From Methanofastidiosum sp. (GTDB taxonomy: Archaea; Methanobacteriota_B; Thermococci; Methanofastidiosales; Methanofastidiosaceae), in contig JABLXD010000006.1 in NCBI GenBank assembly GCA_013178285.1, positions 1 through 61,172 of the forward strand: a DNA stretch of 61,172 nt. Direction: 5' to 3'. The notes beneath the pieces were generated by a model. That model had not been told where the DNA came from, ran no database searches, and saw nothing but the letters and a program-made list of their open reading frames with translations. Numbering within the stretch: the first letter of the stretch is position 1; every line of letters begins with the position of its first letter. Shown here in pieces: positions 16,554-25,870 of the stretch. A program made the translations under genes and the position numbers.

Positions 16554-17120
16554 TTATCTTCTTTGTGTATATTCCCAGCATATCTCCCAGACTGGAATTG
16601 TAGCACATGTCGGATCATTTATCTTGTAATAAACAGGAGTTCGCGGGTGGTCAATTCCAATGTCGAATCTCTTATCTTTTTCTACCTTTGTATCAATAAA
16701 GGCGATTCTTGCAATGTTTGTTGGAGTGTAGCCGTAAAGTGGAATATTCCTAGAGTATGCCCTCTGTAATTTGACTTTAGTCTTTTGTGAAATTACTCCA
16801 TTGTCTGGCCTTCCTTCGACAACAGTGATGTATCCAAATCCAGGATCCTTCTTACGATTAATGATTATGTTTGGCTCCTTCAACTCACTAAAGATTTTTT
16901 CACTTATGTAAACGGCCTCGAAGTTATTGAAGTAATTATTTTCTTCTAATTTTATCTGGCCTGATTCTGGAATTTGAACTACTTCATATTCTTGATTAGA
17001 AAGGTACTTCTTTAGATAGTCTGTTGGCTCATCCAAAACTAAAACCTTAGCAGATACTGCTGAAATACTACATAATATAATTATAATGCAAAATAGGGAA
17101 AATTCAATCTTTGTTTTCAT
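16554..17120 (-). CDS. Secreted protein of unknown function
   Basis: Residues 1-24 are a signal peptide (FSLFCIIIILCSISAVSAK). The remaining 165 residues begin VLVLDEPTDYLKKYLSNQEYEVVQIPESGQIKLEENNYF, which suggests an alpha/beta fold such as a ThuA- or BatD-like receiver, but no family is recognised with confidence. It ends with three cysteine/tryptophan-rich lines (TCATIPVWEICWEY). The start has a strong GGGGGGATC ribosome binding site 3 bases upstream. It converges with the DMT transporter. Confidence 0.6.
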   Translation of the reverse strand: MKTKIEFSLFCIIIILCSISAVSAKVLVLDEPTDYLKKYLSNQEYEVVQIPESGQIKLEENNYFNNFEAVYISEKIFSELKEPNIIINRKKDPGFGYITVVEGRPDNGVISQKTKVKLQRAYSRNIPLYGYTPTNIARIAFIDTKVEKDKRFDIGIDHPRTPVYYKINDPTCATIPVWEICWEYTQRR

Positions 17121-17169: not shown

Positions 17170-17298
17170 ATTTCTCGCCAATAAATAAGTTTTTATAGGG
17201 AAATTCCTTAATTATATCGAATAAATATGGATTTCATATCTATAACTTTGTAAAAGAATGCATTATATTGAATTTATTGGTATATGGGGCTGTTTTTA

Positions 17299-20049
17299 AT
17301 GGATAACGAAGCTAGAGCCAGGGAAGACATTGACAAGATGCTTTTTGATTGTGGTTGGGTTGTTCAGGATTATAAAATGATGGATCTCAGTGCTTCAAGA
17401 AGTGTTGCTGTAAGAGAGTTCCCTCTTCTAACAGGATTTGCAGACTACCTTCTATTTATTGATAGAAAAGCATGTGGTGTCATTGAGGCAAAAAGAGTTG
17501 GAATTCCACTTGGTGGCGTTGCAGACCAATCGATGAGGTATGTTGGAGGTTTGCCAGATGATATCCCTTCTTACGGAACTCCACTGCCTTTTGTATATAA
17601 TAGCACTGGAAAAGAAACTTCGTTTGTTGACCTCAGAGACCCAAGACCACGCTCAAGGAGAGTTTTCTCTTTCCATAGGGCTGAAACATTGAGGGAATAT
17701 CTATCCGATGAAAGGACATTAAGAAATAAATTACAAGAGATGCCCATATTACTAACTGATGGATTAAGAGACTGCCAGATTGAAGCTGTGACAAATCTTG
17801 AAAGATCATTTAAAGATGCAAGACCTCGTGCATTAATCCAGATGGCAACAGGTTCTGGGAAAACTTTCACAGCAATTAGCTTCGTTTATCGTTTGATAAA
17901 GCACTCAAATGCAAAGAGAGTCCTTTTTTTGGTAGATAGAAACAATCTAGGCAAACAAGCCATGATTGAGTTTAGCCAGTATAAAACACCCGATGATGGG
18001 AGAAAGTTTACTGAACTTTATAACGTCCAGCATCTCTCTTCAAATGTAATTGACCCAGCAAGCAGAGTTTGCATTTCAACTATCCAAAGGGTCTATTCAA
18101 TGCTTAGAGGGGAAATTGAGATGCAAGAAGAAGCAGAAGAGCAGTCACTTTTTGACCAGGATATTGATGGCGCTCCAGTTGATGTTTCTTATAATCCTTT
18201 TATTCCTATTGAAACATTTGATTTCATTATAACTGATGAGTGTCACAGGTCTATTTACAATCTTTGGAGGCAGGTTTTGGAGTATTTTGATTCATTTATT
18301 ATTGGCCTTACGGCTACCCCTTCAAAACAGACCCTTGGATTTTTCAATCAGAATCTTGTGATGGAGTACAATCACGAGCGAGCAGTTGCAGATGGAGTTA
18401 ATGTCGGATACGATGTTTATAGAATTAATACTGCGATAACTGAGAAAGGTAGCACTGTTGAGGCAGGATTTTACATTGATAAAAGAGACAGACTTACAAG
18501 ACAAGTTAGGTGGGAGTCTCTTGATGAAGATTTCAAGTATGAAGGGCGAGACCTGGATAGGTCAGTTGTTGCACCAGACCAGATAAGGGCTGTGGTAAAA
18601 ACATTCAAAGAAAGAGTATTTACTGAGATATTCCCTGGAAGAAAAACTGTACCAAAGACACTAATATTTGCCAAAGACGATTCGCATGCGGAAGATATAG
18701 TAAACATAGTAAGGGAAGAGTTTGGGCAGGGGGACGAATTCTGTAAAAAAATTACTTATAGGACTATGGGAGAAAAACCAGAAGATCTGATAAGTAGTTT
18801 CAGGAACTCTTACAATCCAAGGATTGCTGTAACTGTAGATATGATATCAACTGGTACAGATATCAAACCACTAGAGTGTCTAGTGTTCATGAGGGATGTT
18901 AAATCCAGAGTTTATTTTGAGCAGATGAAAGGAAGAGGTACAAGAACTATCTCCCCAACTGATTTGAGGGGTGTCACGCCTGACGCATATACTAAAACTC
19001 ATTTTGTTATTATAGATGCAGTTGGCGTTTGTGAAACAGACAAAACTGATTCAATGCCTCTTGAAAGGGCAAAGAACGTACCATTGGAAAAACTACTTAT
19101 GGGAATGGCCCTAAGGAAAAAGAACAGAGACATGATTACATCTCTTGCCGGCAGACTATCAAAAATTGACTTACAGATGAATGAAAAGGAGAAACAAGAA
19201 ATTCAGAACATAGCTGGAAAGAATATTAATCAAATAGTAAACGAACTACTTGATGCAGTTGATCCAGACAAAACTATTGAAAAGGCAAAAGAGATGTTCA
19301 ATACTAGTGAGCCCACTAAAGAAGAGCTAAACAAGGCTACCGAAGAGCTTCTAAATAGAGCAAGTAAGCCTTTTGATAATCCAAAGTTTAGATCTAGAAT
19401 TATTGAGATAAAAAAGAAAAATGAGCAGATAATTGATAACATTAGTAAGGATGAAATTATATTTGCTGGCTTTGATGATTTGGCAGCTGAGAAGGCAAGA
19501 ATTATTGTAAATAACTTCAAGAATTTCATTCAGGAAAATAAGGATGAGCTAACTGCACTTCAAATTATCTATAGCAATCCCTACCCAACAAGATTTTTGA
19601 CATATGATGCAATTAAGGAACTTGCTGAAGCTATAGAAAGGCCACCTTACTACCTTACACCTGATAATTTGTGGGCAGCTTATGAAAAGCTAGAGAAATC
19701 TAAGGTAAAGGGTGCAGGACCACACAAACTACTTACAGATATTGTATCTCTCTTAAGATTTGAGCTTGGAGAGAGTAAGATCCTTGAGCCTTTTTCTTAT
19801 ACTGTTGACAAGAGATTTGAAGAGTGGATTTCGAACAAGAAAAAGCAAGGTGTTACTTTTACTGAGGAGCAGATAGAATGGCTTAGAATGATAAAAGACC
19901 ACATTTCTACTTCAATGAGTATTACTAAAGAGGATCTTGAGCAGACCCCATTCCATAATAAGGGAGGACTTTTTAGAGCTAACAAAATCTTTGATGGAAA
20001 AATTGATAATGTAATGAAAGATTTACAAGAATCACTGGTGAGCAAGTGA
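17299..20049 (+). CDS. hsdR: Type I restriction enzyme, HsdR (endonuclease/translocase) subunit
   Basis: HsdR translocates and cleaves unmethylated DNA after HsdS recognition. The N-terminal nuclease core has LTGFADYLLFIDRKACGVIEAK, giving the D...E-x-K catalytic residues. The SF2 helicase motor has MATGSGKT (Walker A), TDECHRS (DEAD-like box) and LTATPS. The C-terminal third (AGFDDLAAEKARII...ENKDELTALQIIYS...LLTDIVSLLRFEL) is the EcoEI-type R C-terminal domain. About 916 residues from ATG 17299; an ATG at 17284 is also possible, and neither has a ribosome binding site. The stop overlaps hsdS by 4 bases. The order R-S-M is less usual. Confidence 0.93.
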   Translation: MDNEARAREDIDKMLFDCGWVVQDYKMMDLSASRSVAVREFPLLTGFADYLLFIDRKACGVIEAKRVGIPLGGVADQSMRYVGGLPDDIPSYGTPLPFVYNSTGKETSFVDLRDPRPRSRRVFSFHRAETLREYLSDERTLRNKLQEMPILLTDGLRDCQIEAVTNLERSFKDARPRALIQMATGSGKTFTAISFVYRLIKHSNAKRVLFLVDRNNLGKQAMIEFSQYKTPDDGRKFTELYNVQHLSSNVIDPASRVCISTIQRVYSMLRGEIEMQEEAEEQSLFDQDIDGAPVDVSYNPFIPIETFDFIITDECHRSIYNLWRQVLEYFDSFIIGLTATPSKQTLGFFNQNLVMEYNHERAVADGVNVGYDVYRINTAITEKGSTVEAGFYIDKRDRLTRQVRWESLDEDFKYEGRDLDRSVVAPDQIRAVVKTFKERVFTEIFPGRKTVPKTLIFAKDDSHAEDIVNIVREEFGQGDEFCKKITYRTMGEKPEDLISSFRNSYNPRIAVTVDMISTGTDIKPLECLVFMRDVKSRVYFEQMKGRGTRTISPTDLRGVTPDAYTKTHFVIIDAVGVCETDKTDSMPLERAKNVPLEKLLMGMALRKKNRDMITSLAGRLSKIDLQMNEKEKQEIQNIAGKNINQIVNELLDAVDPDKTIEKAKEMFNTSEPTKEELNKATEELLNRASKPFDNPKFRSRIIEIKKKNEQIIDNISKDEIIFAGFDDLAAEKARIIVNNFKNFIQENKDELTALQIIYSNPYPTRFLTYDAIKELAEAIERPPYYLTPDNLWAAYEKLEKSKVKGAGPHKLLTDIVSLLRFELGESKILEPFSYTVDKRFEEWISNKKKQGVTFTEEQIEWLRMIKDHISTSMSITKEDLEQTPFHNKGGLFRANKIFDGKIDNVMKDLQESLVSK

Positions 20050-21422
20050 ACGGAGAATTGCCCAAAGGTTGGGTTTGGACGAGTCTAGAAAATTGCATTG
20101 ATATCTTAGATAGTCAAAGAAAACCAATTAATGCAGAAGAACGTGAAGAAAGAATTCAAAATAAAAACGAATCTGATCTTTATCCTTATTATGGTGCAAC
20201 TGGACAAGTTGGTTGGATTGAGGGATATATTTTTGACGAAGAATTAATTTTACTTGGAGAAGACGGTGCACCATTTCTTGATTTTTCTAAAGATAAATCC
20301 TATCTGATAAAAGGCAAAACATGGGTAAACAATCATGCACATGTTTTACGTGCTGTTGGGAATGTTGCGAATAATCGTTATATTTGCCATTATCTAAATA
20401 TTTGTGATTATAGAAACTATATTACAGGTACAACAAGGTACAAACTTAACCAATCGCAAATGCGAAAAATACATATTCCGCTCTCTCCACTAGCCGAACA
20501 GCAGAGAATAGTAAACAAAATAGAAGAGCTTTTCACAAATCTTGATAAAGGTGTTGAATCTCTGAAAGAAGTTAAATCAAAACTTAAAGTGTATCGCCAA
20601 GCTATTTTGAAATATGCGATGGAAGGAAAACTCACTGAGAAATGGAGAGAAGAAAATAAAGATAAAACTGAGCCCGTAATTACTTTAATTAATAAAATCA
20701 ACATAGACGCAGAAGTTTCAAAAGTGCTGCCTGAAAGTTGGTCAGAACTAAGAGTTAAAGATATTGGTGAAATTGTAACCGGTACAACACCAAGTAAATC
20801 TATTAATGAATATTATGGCCATGATTGTTCATTCTTTAAGCCAAAAGATCTAAATAAAGGTTATTATGTAAAAACTTCAGAAGATGGTTTATCATTTAAA
20901 GGTATGGAAAAATCTAGGGTTTTACCAATCAAAAGTATTCTAGTAACTTGCATTGGTGCCACAATTGGGAAAACAGGATTTACTAGGGTAGAAGGTGCTT
21001 CTAATCAACAAATAAATGCCATTATACCCTTTAAGAATGTGATTCCAGAATTTGTATACTTCTATTCAATTTCACCACAATTTCAAAAGAATATTATAGT
21101 TAATTCTTCTTCAACTACTTTGCCAATTCTTAATAAATCTAAATTTGAAATTTTGGAATTATTCGTACCCCCTCTTGAAGAACAGAAAGTAATAGTAGAA
21201 AGAATAGAAAAACTATTCTCCCTTGCAGACTATATAGAAGAAACAGTCGACTCTAAGCTAGAAGAATCCAAAATTCTCCGGCAAAGTATCCTAAAAAAAG
21301 CCTTTGAAGGAAAACTTGTGCCACAAGATCCAAATGACGAGCCTGCAGAAATCTTATTACAAAAAATAAAAATGGAAAAGTCAAATAAAGGAAAACTTGT
21401 TCAGGAGAAACTGGTAGAATGA
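20046..21422 (+). CDS. hsdS: Type I restriction-modification specificity subunit HsdS
   Basis: Recognises the bipartite target site. Two target-recognition domains (residues about 1-145 and 220-385) are each followed by a long helical conserved region (PLSPLAEQQRIVNKIEELFTNL and PPLEEQKVIVERIEKLFSLAD) that set the spacing between half-sites and dock HsdM. The 458-residue length is complete for a two-TRD subunit. The start overlaps hsdR and the end overlaps hsdM, each by 4 bases, so the three are one operon with coupled translation. Its sequence is visibly more AT-rich than hsdM, as is common in exchangeable specificity genes. Confidence 0.93.
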   Translation: MNGELPKGWVWTSLENCIDILDSQRKPINAEEREERIQNKNESDLYPYYGATGQVGWIEGYIFDEELILLGEDGAPFLDFSKDKSYLIKGKTWVNNHAHVLRAVGNVANNRYICHYLNICDYRNYITGTTRYKLNQSQMRKIHIPLSPLAEQQRIVNKIEELFTNLDKGVESLKEVKSKLKVYRQAILKYAMEGKLTEKWREENKDKTEPVITLINKINIDAEVSKVLPESWSELRVKDIGEIVTGTTPSKSINEYYGHDCSFFKPKDLNKGYYVKTSEDGLSFKGMEKSRVLPIKSILVTCIGATIGKTGFTRVEGASNQQINAIIPFKNVIPEFVYFYSISPQFQKNIIVNSSSTTLPILNKSKFEILELFVPPLEEQKVIVERIEKLFSLADYIEETVDSKLEESKILRQSILKKAFEGKLVPQDPNDEPAEILLQKIKMEKSNKGKLVQEKLVE

Positions 21423-22870
21423 GTAACGAAGCACTTGCCGTACAAAAGCTATGGAACTACTGCAATGTCCTAAGGGACGATGGGGTTAGTTATGGCGATT
21501 ATGTAGAGCAACTCACCTACTTATTATTTTTAAAAATGGATGATGAGCAGACTAAATCCCCTTTCAACAGGGAGTCAAAGATACCAAAAGATCTCAACTG
21601 GGAGAGTCTTCTAAAAAAGGATGGCGATGAGCTTGAAGTACATTATCGGCACATTCTAGAATCTCTGGGAAAGGAAAAAGGAATGATCGGAGTCATCTTC
21701 AGAAAAGCCCAGAACAAGATTCAAGACCCGGCAAAACTAAAGAGGCTTGTCATGCTTATCGAAGGGGAAGAGACCTGGATGGGCATGGGTATCGATGTAA
21801 AGGGGGCAATCTATGAAGGCTTGCTACAGAAAAATGCAGAGGATATCAAAAGTGGAGCTGGCCAGTATTTCACGCCTAGAGCACTAATAAAAGCGATGGT
21901 TGATGTAATAAGACCAAAACCTGGTGAAACTATCTGCGACCCAGCATGCGGAACTGGAGGATTCCTTTTAGCATCATATGACTTGATCTCTAAATATCCA
22001 CTGAATGTTGAAGAAAAGAAGTTCCTAAGAGAAGGCACCTTCCACGGCTGGGACATTGTGGACAGCGTTGTAAGGCTCTGCACAATGAACCTCTACCTCC
22101 ACGGCATCGGTGGAGAAGATAGTCCAATAGTAACTGACGATGCCTTAACATCCGACCCAGGAGACAGATTTGACATAGTCCTCACTAATCCTCCTTTTGG
22201 GAAGAAGAGCAGCATCACAATAGTAAACGGCGAAGGTAAGATTGAGAAAGAATCTCTAACCTACCAAAGAAACGACTTCTGGGCAACTACTTCTAACAAG
22301 CAGCTTAATTTCCTGCAGCATGTTAAAACTTTATTAGAGATAAACGGTAGGGCAGCAATAGTCGTCCCTGATAATGTGCTTTTCGAAGGCGGAGCTGGAG
22401 AAACAGTAAGAAAAAGATTGCTCCAGCAGTGCGATGTCCACACACTTCTTAGACTTCCAACGGGTATCTTCTACGCCCAAGGCGTCAAAGCAAATGTATT
22501 GTTCTTTGATAAAAGAGCTGCCAGCGAAAAGCCCTGGACAGAAAAGCTCTGGATATACGACCTAAGGACTAACATCCACTTCACACTAAAAACTAACACC
22601 CTAAAATATGAAGACCTAGAGGATTTCATAAACTGCTACAATCCAGAAAATAGACACGAGAGAAGAGAAACTGAAAGATTCAAAGCCTTTACCTATGAAG
22701 AGATCATGAAAAGAGACAAGACAAATCTAGACATCTTCTGGCTAAAAGACGAGAGTCTAGGCGACTCAGAAAATCTTCCAGACCCAAAGCTCCTAGCATT
22801 AGAAATTGCAGAAGATTTGGAGTCAGCACTTGACGAGTTTAAAAGAATATATGAAGAATTAGAAGAATAG
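21419..22870 (+). CDS. hsdM: Type I restriction-modification DNA adenine methyltransferase HsdM
   Basis: N6-adenine methyltransferase of 483 residues that protects the host site and completes the HsdM2S methylase. Residues 1-135 are the HsdM N-terminal helical domain (LWNYCNVLRDDGVSYGDYVEQLTYLLFLKM). The catalytic domain has DPACGTGGF (SAM motif I) and DIVLTNPPFGKKS (motif IV, NPPF). The gene uses noticeably more C and G than hsdS or the flanking genes, hinting at a separate origin of parts of the locus. It ends 4 bases from the convergent TBP-like gene. Confidence 0.95.
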   Translation: MSNEALAVQKLWNYCNVLRDDGVSYGDYVEQLTYLLFLKMDDEQTKSPFNRESKIPKDLNWESLLKKDGDELEVHYRHILESLGKEKGMIGVIFRKAQNKIQDPAKLKRLVMLIEGEETWMGMGIDVKGAIYEGLLQKNAEDIKSGAGQYFTPRALIKAMVDVIRPKPGETICDPACGTGGFLLASYDLISKYPLNVEEKKFLREGTFHGWDIVDSVVRLCTMNLYLHGIGGEDSPIVTDDALTSDPGDRFDIVLTNPPFGKKSSITIVNGEGKIEKESLTYQRNDFWATTSNKQLNFLQHVKTLLEINGRAAIVVPDNVLFEGGAGETVRKRLLQQCDVHTLLRLPTGIFYAQGVKANVLFFDKRAASEKPWTEKLWIYDLRTNIHFTLKTNTLKYEDLEDFINCYNPENRHERRETERFKAFTYEEIMKRDKTNLDIFWLKDESLGDSENLPDPKLLALEIAEDLESALDEFKRIYEELEE

Positions 22871-22874
22871 TAAA

Positions 22875-23183
22875 TTAAAGGAGCTTGTTCTCCTTCAATA
22901 TCCTGATAACTTCATCATAAACGTCGTTTAGTTCTTTCTCACTCTTTGCACCTGTAATGATATACTTACCGTTTTTGTATATCGTGACGTGTTTTCTCTC
23001 TCCATCAACCATTACCTTCACAAGAAGTGCTGGGTAGGTCTCTGGGTTGTATTCGGCATGAACGAAGTCAATAATTCCGTAAGCCTTTACTATATCCACA
23101 TCATTTGGAAATCTTCCAGTTGCAACAATATTCGTTATTATAGGTCTTGTCCCAAAAGGTACATCTTTCTTCATCAAAATCAT
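22875..23183 (-). CDS. Stand-alone single-repeat TBP-like protein
   Basis: A 102-residue protein that matches one half of archaeal TATA-binding protein: NIVATGRF (residues 18-25), AEYNPETYPALLVKV (43-57) and YKNGKYIITGAKSEKEL (69-85), with the helix following. Normal archaeal TBP has two such repeats in about 180-190 residues, whereas this has only one and would need to dimerise to form a saddle. The two phenylalanines that kink DNA in each TBP repeat correspond to Tyr50 and Tyr69. It starts at ATG 23183 or 23174. It might be a promoter-binding regulator, or a TBP competitor; both are inference. It lies tail to tail with hsdM and upstream-to-upstream with a histidine kinase. Confidence 0.78.
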   Translation of the reverse strand: MILMKKDVPFGTRPIITNIVATGRFPNDVDIVKAYGIIDFVHAEYNPETYPALLVKVMVDGERKHVTIYKNGKYIITGAKSEKELNDVYDEVIRILKENKLL

Positions 23184-23220
23184 CCTTTATCAGTTATATT
23201 ATTAGTATTGTTGGGACTAG

Positions 23221-23230
23221 TATATAAGCT
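23221..23230 (-). promoter_or_regulatory. TATA box of the TBP-like gene
   Basis: On the bottom strand AAAAGCTTATATAC gives BRE plus TATA, predicting transcription from about 23200 and a leader of 17-26 bases before the candidate ATGs. Confidence 0.5.
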
Positions 23231-23300
23231 TTTATTTTTAACTTATTTAGAATATAGCTTCTTATCAAGATTACTGATAAAACTAAGGGAAAAAGGTAAT

Positions 23301-24903: not shown

Positions 24904-25233
24904 TTGGATTTCGTGAAGAAATATTACCAATCAAGACTTGACCCATATCTTAAAAACAATATCCAAGAAATCGTCCCTTCTGAAAAGAAAGAAAATCCTT
25001 ATACAAATTTAAAGTGCTCTCTTCTCTCAGAACTAAATATTTCTGATTCATACTCTTATTTCAAGTGTAATTATAGAAACGGAATAGAATTTCCAAAAAC
25101 TGGTTTATGCTTTTCCTGCCCTTTGAAAAATTTTGAAGGGATATGGATTGGTGCGGAAATTGACATAAAAGAGAGAGAAAAATACTTAAAAAGCCAGATC
25201 AATCCCCAGTGGCTTTGCTTTGGAATAAAATAA
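24904..25233 (+). CDS. Small cysteine-containing protein of unknown function
   Basis: A 109-residue protein I do not recognise. It has five cysteines (about residues 38, 54, 68, 71 and 104), including a CFSC pair, and could bind a metal. The TTG at 24904 has no ribosome binding site. With the TATA box at 24881-24890, transcription should begin near 24910, so the GTG at 24913 may be a leaderless start. No membrane segments or signal peptide are seen. It is convergent with the membrane protein gene, 2 bases away. Confidence 0.6.
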   Translation: MDFVKKYYQSRLDPYLKNNIQEIVPSEKKENPYTNLKCSLLSELNISDSYSYFKCNYRNGIEFPKTGLCFSCPLKNFEGIWIGAEIDIKEREKYLKSQINPQWLCFGIK

Positions 25234-25235
25234 AG

Positions 25236-25823
25236 TTATTTTTTATTTTGTCTAATTGACTCTCTAGCCGAGTGAAATGCATCGTACAACATTTCCTTGA
25301 ACTCATTTCCAACGTCATCCCAACTTATCTCTTCTTTTGATTTGCTCTTGGTAGATGGTTTCTTCTTTGGATGGTCCCAAGAAGCGCCAGAGAGTATCGA
25401 AATGTACCCCCCTAAAAGGACAAGTAAGAATATTATCGGGTATAGGAATGGGAATGCCTTTGACATAAAATCAAACGTATCGATTTCTGAAAGATTCCCG
25501 ACTAGCCTGAATATTTTAAACAGGAAATTAAGAAGGAAAATGCTCCCTACTGCATTAAATATCGGTGCAGGTAAGTTTCCAGGAAACTTAAAGCTTCCAA
25601 AGACTTCACCGATTGTGAAGATTATTGAGAAAACAAAGATTAGCCAAATATTGTTATTGAGTAATCTAACTACTTCAGAGAGAATATTGCTATCGAATAC
25701 ATCAAGAGAGATATTGAGGAATCCTAGAATTATAAGAAATACTATAAAAGATACTAGATTGTATATCACAATCCTTGCCGGAGATTGCCTTTTTTCTTTT
25801 CTATCTGAGTTGTCTTCTGCCAT
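25236..25823 (-). CDS. Four-helix membrane protein of unknown function
   Basis: About 195 residues with four predicted membrane helices (IVIYNLVSFIVFLIILGFL, IWLIFVFSIIFTIGEVF, AVGSIFLLNFLFKIFRL and LYPIIFLLVLLGGYISIL) and a basic-then-acidic cytosolic tail ending SARESIRQNKK. I chose ATG 25823 because a TATA element (AAAATTTATAAC on the bottom strand, 25845-25856) predicts transcription from about 25824. An ATG at 25838 would lie upstream of that. No family is recognised. It is divergent from the cysteine-rich secreted protein. Confidence 0.65.
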   Translation of the reverse strand: MAEDNSDRKEKRQSPARIVIYNLVSFIVFLIILGFLNISLDVFDSNILSEVVRLLNNNIWLIFVFSIIFTIGEVFGSFKFPGNLPAPIFNAVGSIFLLNFLFKIFRLVGNLSEIDTFDFMSKAFPFLYPIIFLLVLLGGYISILSGASWDHPKKKPSTKSKSKEEISWDDVGNEFKEMLYDAFHSARESIRQNKK

Positions 25824-25870
25824 GATGTGGTATGCCATAATAATGTTATAAATTTTACTCTAATTCGAAA

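Follow-up and report, generated by a model that had tools for sequence, protein, structure and literature searches.

The stand-alone TATA-binding protein (TBP) lobe described here carries tyrosines in place of the DNA-kinking phenylalanines, and lobes with the same signature recur beside DNA-methylating defence systems in other archaea and in viruses. We lean, if only slightly, towards the reading that this half-TBP, encoded in a 61,172-nucleotide stretch of a Methanofastidiosum contig (the window), binds promoters as a factor dedicated to defence, probably in the form of a homodimer that would tune the expression of restriction-modification (RM) genes. The broader proposal, to which we give a little less than an even chance, is that archaea hold a TBP family dedicated to restriction-type immunity, in which a Tyr/Tyr lobe, alone or fused to a TFB-binding lobe, would serve to control RM, BREX, and viral type IIG modules. 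The locus comprises the following features:

17284-20049, forward strand: hsdR, type I restriction subunit (Pfam, PADLOC)
20046-21422, forward strand: hsdS, type I specificity subunit, which varies between species (Pfam, PADLOC, tblastn)
21419-22870, forward strand: hsdM, type I DNA methyltransferase, tail-to-tail with the half-TBP at 4 bp (Pfam, PADLOC)
22875-23183, reverse strand: half-TBP, a stand-alone Tyr/Tyr TBP lobe, 102 codons from the first ATG (PF00352, AlphaFold2/Foldseek, eight orthologues)
22959-22979, reverse strand: Tyr69 (second kinking position; codon 22977-22979) to Ile75, YKNGKYI, the core of TxYxxGKYI (alignments)
23034-23036, reverse strand: codon of Tyr50, the first kinking position, which is Phe in canonical TBP (alignments)
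23172-23174, reverse strand: alternative start, Met4, with a Shine-Dalgarno-like GGATGA ahead of it
23216-23240, reverse strand: promoter block TAAAAATAAAAGCTTATATACTAGT, 25 bp, BRE/TATA-like, upstream of the half-TBP and nearly invariant in 8/8 genomes (alignment)

The gene encodes one TBP repeat, matched by the Pfam profile PF00352 as a single domain scoring 58.7 bits (cut-off 22.9 bits; residues 15-98, profile positions 3-84 of 85). The real product may be 99 residues long, starting from Met4, rather than 102. An AlphaFold2 model based on a 22-row alignment reached a pLDDT of 87.4, with its structural elements ordered as in TBP; seven near-identical rows had made too shallow an alignment (pLDDT 50), which the addition of viral TBP lobes fixed. 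When this model was compared with the PDB by Foldseek, the first 44 matches were TBPs or TBP fusions only, with TM-scores by query of at most 0.77 and fits of 1.5-2.7 Å for nearly all (about 2 Å for most). The matches at E <= 0.001 were true TBPs only, and RnlA had an E-value of 0.27. The model confidence and the identity of all of the first 44 matches exclude a chance likeness to TBP, and by both curated profile and fold the protein belongs to the TBP superfamily. It is not a canonical TBP, which has two lobes per chain: it has a single domain in 102 residues. A normal two-repeat Phe/Phe TBP, for which the sequence-only reading had suggested a search, is encoded elsewhere in the source genome (G000:C24:7183-7692). 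That reading had also considered a truncated or frameshifted copy of the full TBP, which we rejected given this separate full-length gene, the intact half-TBP in eight genomes of the genus, and its separate branch in the lobe tree.

The intercalating Phe pair that marks canonical TBPs aligns with Tyr50 and Tyr69 of the half-TBP, and both tyrosines are present in 8/8 orthologues; replacement of Phe by Tyr has been reported to affect TATA binding (PMC7221094). The two tyrosines are 19 residues apart, compared with 17 in canonical lobes, and the hairpin is therefore two residues longer. The nearest plasmid matches of the half-TBP were haloarchaeal TBPs, most of which carry Tyr at both kink positions of the N-lobe, within TxYxxGKYI, and have a normal Phe/Phe C-lobe. 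Haloarchaeal TbpC has this same Tyr lobe as its N-terminal half, and so do previously unreported TBPs from Thermococcaceae, methanogens, and viruses. Another phylum holds two half-TBPs (G372, with 52-55% identity, and G304, whose copy looks frameshifted), each just downstream of hsdR. On sequence grounds, the half-TBP is the stand-alone form of a separate TBP lobe family (the Y-lobe: Tyr/Tyr, TxYxxGKYI), which occurs on its own in two phyla and fused to a canonical C-lobe elsewhere. Across all lobes collected, the kink positions were Phe/Phe in canonical N-lobes and nearly all C-lobes, and mostly Tyr/Tyr in the Tyr lobes, some of which were His/Tyr or other. The Glu pair that contacts TFB (C.L3.2/C.L3.4 in the numbering of PMC7221094) was kept in 26 out of 28 C-lobes of Tyr-TBPs. 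One further, related TBP (L265:4938-5441, genome G371), encoded upstream of hsdM-S-R, has a Tyr/Phe pair at the kink positions of its N-lobe and is a possible intermediate.

In the lobe tree, stand-alone and fused Tyr lobes formed one clade (support 100/98) apart from canonical N-lobes, canonical C-lobes, and the half-TBPs of small-genome archaea. Removal of ten signature columns left the clade in the best tree with a support of 81/0; the signature therefore carries most of the tree support, and the tree alone leaves room for convergence. Among ten NCBIfam TBP models, the half-TBP scored best on NF001593, whose cut-off H. salinarum TbpC passes. With TbpC-type TBPs it shares an N-lobe that lacks the Phe pair, the TxYxxGKYI motif, and the grouping with TbpC N-lobes (weak without the signature columns), and it lacks what the fused members have in addition, a canonical C-lobe that carries the Phe pair and the TFB-contact Glu. 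Viral contigs scanned with the half-TBP and with Tyr-lobe alignments yielded no relative, and the viral TBPs were recovered only with an alignment of full TBPs.

Within the genus, we found the gene intact in 8 out of 10 Ca. Methanofastidiosum species genomes (91-100% identical), and we did not find it in the remaining families of the order. Of the two genomes of the genus without it, one (G003) has a contig end that cuts hsdM, so that the half-TBP site is missing, and the other (G008) is 68% complete. The dN/dS of the half-TBP was 0.045 (28 pairs, mean dS 0.8), which indicates a working gene when compared with the full TBP (0.013), HsdM (0.026), and the neighboring EamA gene (0.034). A resemblance to the promoter block near position 17178 (4 mismatches) was judged to be due to chance.

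The half-TBP sits between hsdRSM and a PAS histidine kinase (Pfam), and it lies tail-to-tail with hsdM of the hsdR-S-M operon in 7 out of 8 genus genomes, a position beside RM genes (4 bp from hsdM in the window) like that of RM control proteins. Across the genus genomes (window 20046-21422, loci L057-L063), HsdR and HsdM are 89-97% identical and HsdS about 40-62%; judged from these identities, with HsdS variable and HsdR and HsdM conserved, the type I system has been resident for a long time and switches targets. Three predicted proteins near the locus have no Pfam match (24904-25233, forward strand; 25236-25838 and 16554-17120, reverse strand), and the first two are also kept in a relative (G002). 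In the eighth genome (G005), a close HsdM is absent anywhere in the genome and the half-TBP lies about 100 bp from EamA; the gap contains 21 bp that match the hsdM 3' end exactly (E 8e-7; local score 78, compared with at most 49 after shuffling). This is most simply explained by a deletion of hsdRSM that left a 21-bp hsdM scar and spared the intact half-TBP and its promoter. The persistence of the half-TBP in this genome without hsdRSM argues against a role confined to that operon, and we rejected the idea that it is an obligate part of the system.

Outside the genus, type I RM genes lie beside Tyr-lobe TBPs in G372, G304, Halobacterium DL1, Haloquadratum PL100, G657, G516, and a member of the Thermococcaceae (G051), as they do in Methanofastidiosum. 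In the Thermococcaceae genome, hsdR-M-S is followed by a tail-to-tail Tyr-TBP, the same layout as in the window. In BREX loci, the order PglX-BrxHII-TBP with 4-bp gene overlaps occurs in H. lacusprofundi, H. salinarum pHS4, Halorientalis, and Natronomonas, and with adjacent genes in Halolamina, and the Haloarcula order is BrxC/PglX-TBP-PglZ-BrxL. Other Tyr-TBP loci adjoin BrxA/BrxC, BrxB/BrxC, or BrxL/PglZ, and further ones lie beside type IIG or other adenine methylases. Two TBP genes accompany a single hsdRSM at L193 (G516:C5), and two are found beside PglX with a BrxHII fragment at L194 (G491:C12). In two virus sequences, a type IIG RM gene is directly followed by a Tyr-lobe TBP (L153:5986-6525 in HRTV-9, MZ334505.1; L239:4992-5285 in IMG/VR 3300000875_000007), so that on viruses, too, the TBP and the RM module travel together.

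By hand tally, DNA-methylating defence systems (type I RM, BREX, or type IIG) were present at about 30 out of 34 Tyr loci versus 0 out of 24 Phe/Phe controls. A stricter count, using an identical tblastn test on both sets within about 6 kb, gave 17 out of 25 Tyr loci versus 0 out of 20 controls (p 1e-6), from modest samples and with reference proteins drawn partly from Tyr loci. Haloarchaea dominate the Tyr loci, which are thus not fully independent. It is important to point out that five loci first chosen as controls by score were Tyr-lobe TBPs and were moved to the test set on their motif. Three of these lie beside BREX genes (L202, L210, and L211) and two beside candidate defence genes (L208 and L209), and for L202 and L210 the neighbor matches were visible in the same output as the motif. 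The Phe/Phe controls gave only three weak matches, to a generic methylase model. Four Tyr loci had no recognized RM or BREX gene nearby, two of them with candidate defence genes only; no recognized RM gene was close by at L184/L186 (stand-alone haloarchaeal halves, one element in two genomes) or L197.

We propose that the half-TBP lobe would dimerize into a TBP-like saddle and, because of its tyrosines, bind AT-rich minor grooves with a weaker or shifted preference, and that it would act at the promoters of the RM locus, perhaps also at its own or at viral promoters, as an archaeal counterpart of RM control (C) proteins. The two-lobe relatives, which keep the TFB-contact Glu in their C-lobe, would be promoter-selective initiation factors, and the half form, without a C-lobe, would more likely be a repressor or competitor of the normal TBP. 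Among the partner enzymes, only the DNA methylases are related to each other, which speaks for a common regulator rather than a common structural subunit; together with the DNA-binding face of TBP and the TFB contacts of the fused members, this makes a transcription role at the defence locus the simplest common denominator. The sequence-only reading had correctly described one TBP repeat with tyrosines at both kinking positions and aromaticity kept, located between hsdRSM and a PAS histidine kinase, and folding the chain alone, as it had advised, returned TBP. It had also proposed an alternative or competing TBP that tunes promoter choice. A true, selected stand-alone lobe with altered aromatic kink residues beside a normal TBP agrees with this in part, but the systematic linkage to RM and BREX, which it had missed, makes a factor dedicated to defence more likely than a general tuner of promoters.

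The strongest rival, which we nonetheless consider unlikely, is that the Tyr lobe is an effector or sensor subunit, i.e. the nucleic-acid-binding part of the defence machinery (for RNA-DNA hybrids, transcription bubbles, or unmodified DNA), and not a transcription regulator; TBP-like lobes have such a recognition role in RNase HIII and may have one in TOTE/TALON systems. At L5.1, the position of Tyr69, the bacterial TBP-lobes of RNase HIII and of the toxin RnlA have Tyr (or His), and in RNase HIII this residue contacts the RNA-DNA duplex (PMC7221094). TBP genes are also found in the defence operons of TALON/TOTE (PMC12458937), Tyr-TBP genes lie inside BREX operons between PglX and PglZ, and the half-TBP outlasts hsdRSM in G005. 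However, one protein interface would be hard to conserve across partners as different as type I, BREX, and type IIG systems, the TFB-contact Glu pair kept in two-lobe members would be needless for a sensor, and Pfam recognized no TPR-CSD gene among eight locus proteins, three of which matched no family. Somewhat less probable again is a general alternative TBP that competes with or modulates the normal TBP across many promoters of the host; the defence linkage would then stem from carriage on mobile islands and not from function. This would fit the presence of the half-TBP in nearly all species of the genus and its persistence after hsd loss, and haloarchaeal TBP paralogues do choose promoters (TbpD, PMC2121645). 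Against it, Phe/Phe paralogues, plasmid ones included, lack the defence linkage, the linkage of Tyr lobes is often operonic with 4-bp overlaps, and the same tail-to-tail layout occurs in two lineages.

Two further explanations fare worse. An antiviral decoy, in which the Tyr lobe would occupy viral TATA boxes or compete with viral TBP and so block virus transcription, could explain the defence linkage and would find targets in viruses that encode their own TBPs, including a Tyr-TBP. We regard it as very unlikely, as the viral Tyr-TBP adjoins the virus's own RM gene and so serves the RM module rather than being inherently antiviral. Least credible, with hardly any probability, is that the half-TBP is a decaying, functionless remnant of a two-lobe TBP: TbpC has been suggested to be possibly nonfunctional (PMC4230888) and the G304 copy looks damaged, but the low dN/dS, the intact gene in eight genomes, the conserved promoter, and the conservation of the Tyr signature across phyla contradict it.

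For the favored promoter-binding factor, a homodimeric saddle is plausible by analogy, because nine small-genome archaeal families include genomes that yielded single-lobe TBPs only, with TFB present in those tested. This suggests that single-lobe TBPs can suffice. In such families, with genomes of 0.7-1.2 Mb, we observed only stand-alone Phe/Phe half-TBPs (1-3 separate genes) and no two-repeat TBP, for instance at G141:C3:371209-371454 (L085/L230) and at G308:C1 119095 and 881769 (L231 and L232), and likewise in G121, G143, G258, G325, G239, G393, G119, G203, and G194; these are apparently natural homo- or heterodimeric TBPs. The lobe tree and the Phe/Phe state of these proteins led us to reject them as relatives of the Methanofastidiosum half-TBP. 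Another small-genome archaeon (L072, G183:C31) has a two-repeat TBP with lobes nearly identical over the core, which suggests that half-TBPs were recently fused again or converted. Within the order to which Methanofastidiosum belongs, one family (G019:C83 and G020:C7) has a TBP open frame of 317 residues with its two repeats far apart.

Haloarchaeal TbpC homologues are known to have lost the N-terminal Phe pair, for which loss of function or a specialized role was suggested (Becker et al. 2014, PMC4230888); the main text of that paper contains neither 'tyrosine' nor 'restriction'. The Halobacterium tbpC knockout is viable with no apparent phenotype (PMC2121645), and no tbpC transcript was detected (PMC4230888). 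Single-lobe archaeal TBPs are mentioned in PMC7221094, which cites Brindefalk 2013, and a survey of archaeal RM systems (PMC10609329) does not mention TATA-binding proteins. As far as the literature searched shows, with incomplete coverage, neither the Tyr signature nor the RM/BREX linkage of TBPs has been reported, and the signature and the defence link are what is new beside the known Phe loss of TbpC. If our proposal is true, archaea have made a restriction controller out of their general transcription machinery, which would link basal transcription to antiviral restriction and give a concrete, testable role to TbpC-type TBPs previously set aside as possibly nonfunctional. Haloarchaea and Thermococcus can be grown and genetically modified, which allows a simple two-gene test, and a natural Tyr/Tyr single-lobe protein allows a trial of the long-standing proposal that the ancestral TBP was a homodimer.

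Among known systems, the haloarchaeal TbpC class (NF001593) resembles the half-TBP in its N-lobe Tyr/Tyr positions and TxYxxGKYI, and several of its genes lie in RM/BREX operons; it differs in its second, canonical Phe/Phe lobe, whereas the half-TBP has one lobe only, the longer hairpin, and an N-terminal extension. Canonical archaeal TBP shares the fold, the Asn/Val groove contacts, and the TGAKS segment, and the half-TBP departs from it in its one repeat, its Tyr instead of Phe, and its separate branch in the lobe tree. The small-genome TBPs likewise have one lobe per gene, but they retain Phe/Phe and group separately, and no other TBPs were found in their genomes. The lobes of RNase HIII, RnlA, and TOTE/TALON are single, TBP-like, and set in defence, with Tyr at L5.1 in the first two; unlike RNase HIII and RnlA, the half-TBP has no nuclease fusion or other domain (Pfam), and unlike TOTE/TALON, it has no TPR-CSD partner recognized by Pfam among the eight locus proteins, three of them without a family. 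RM control (C) proteins are also small DNA-binding proteins, as the half-TBP is predicted to be, with their gene beside an RM system. The C proteins are helix-turn-helix proteins, whereas the half-TBP, for which we infer RM regulation, is a TBP lobe.
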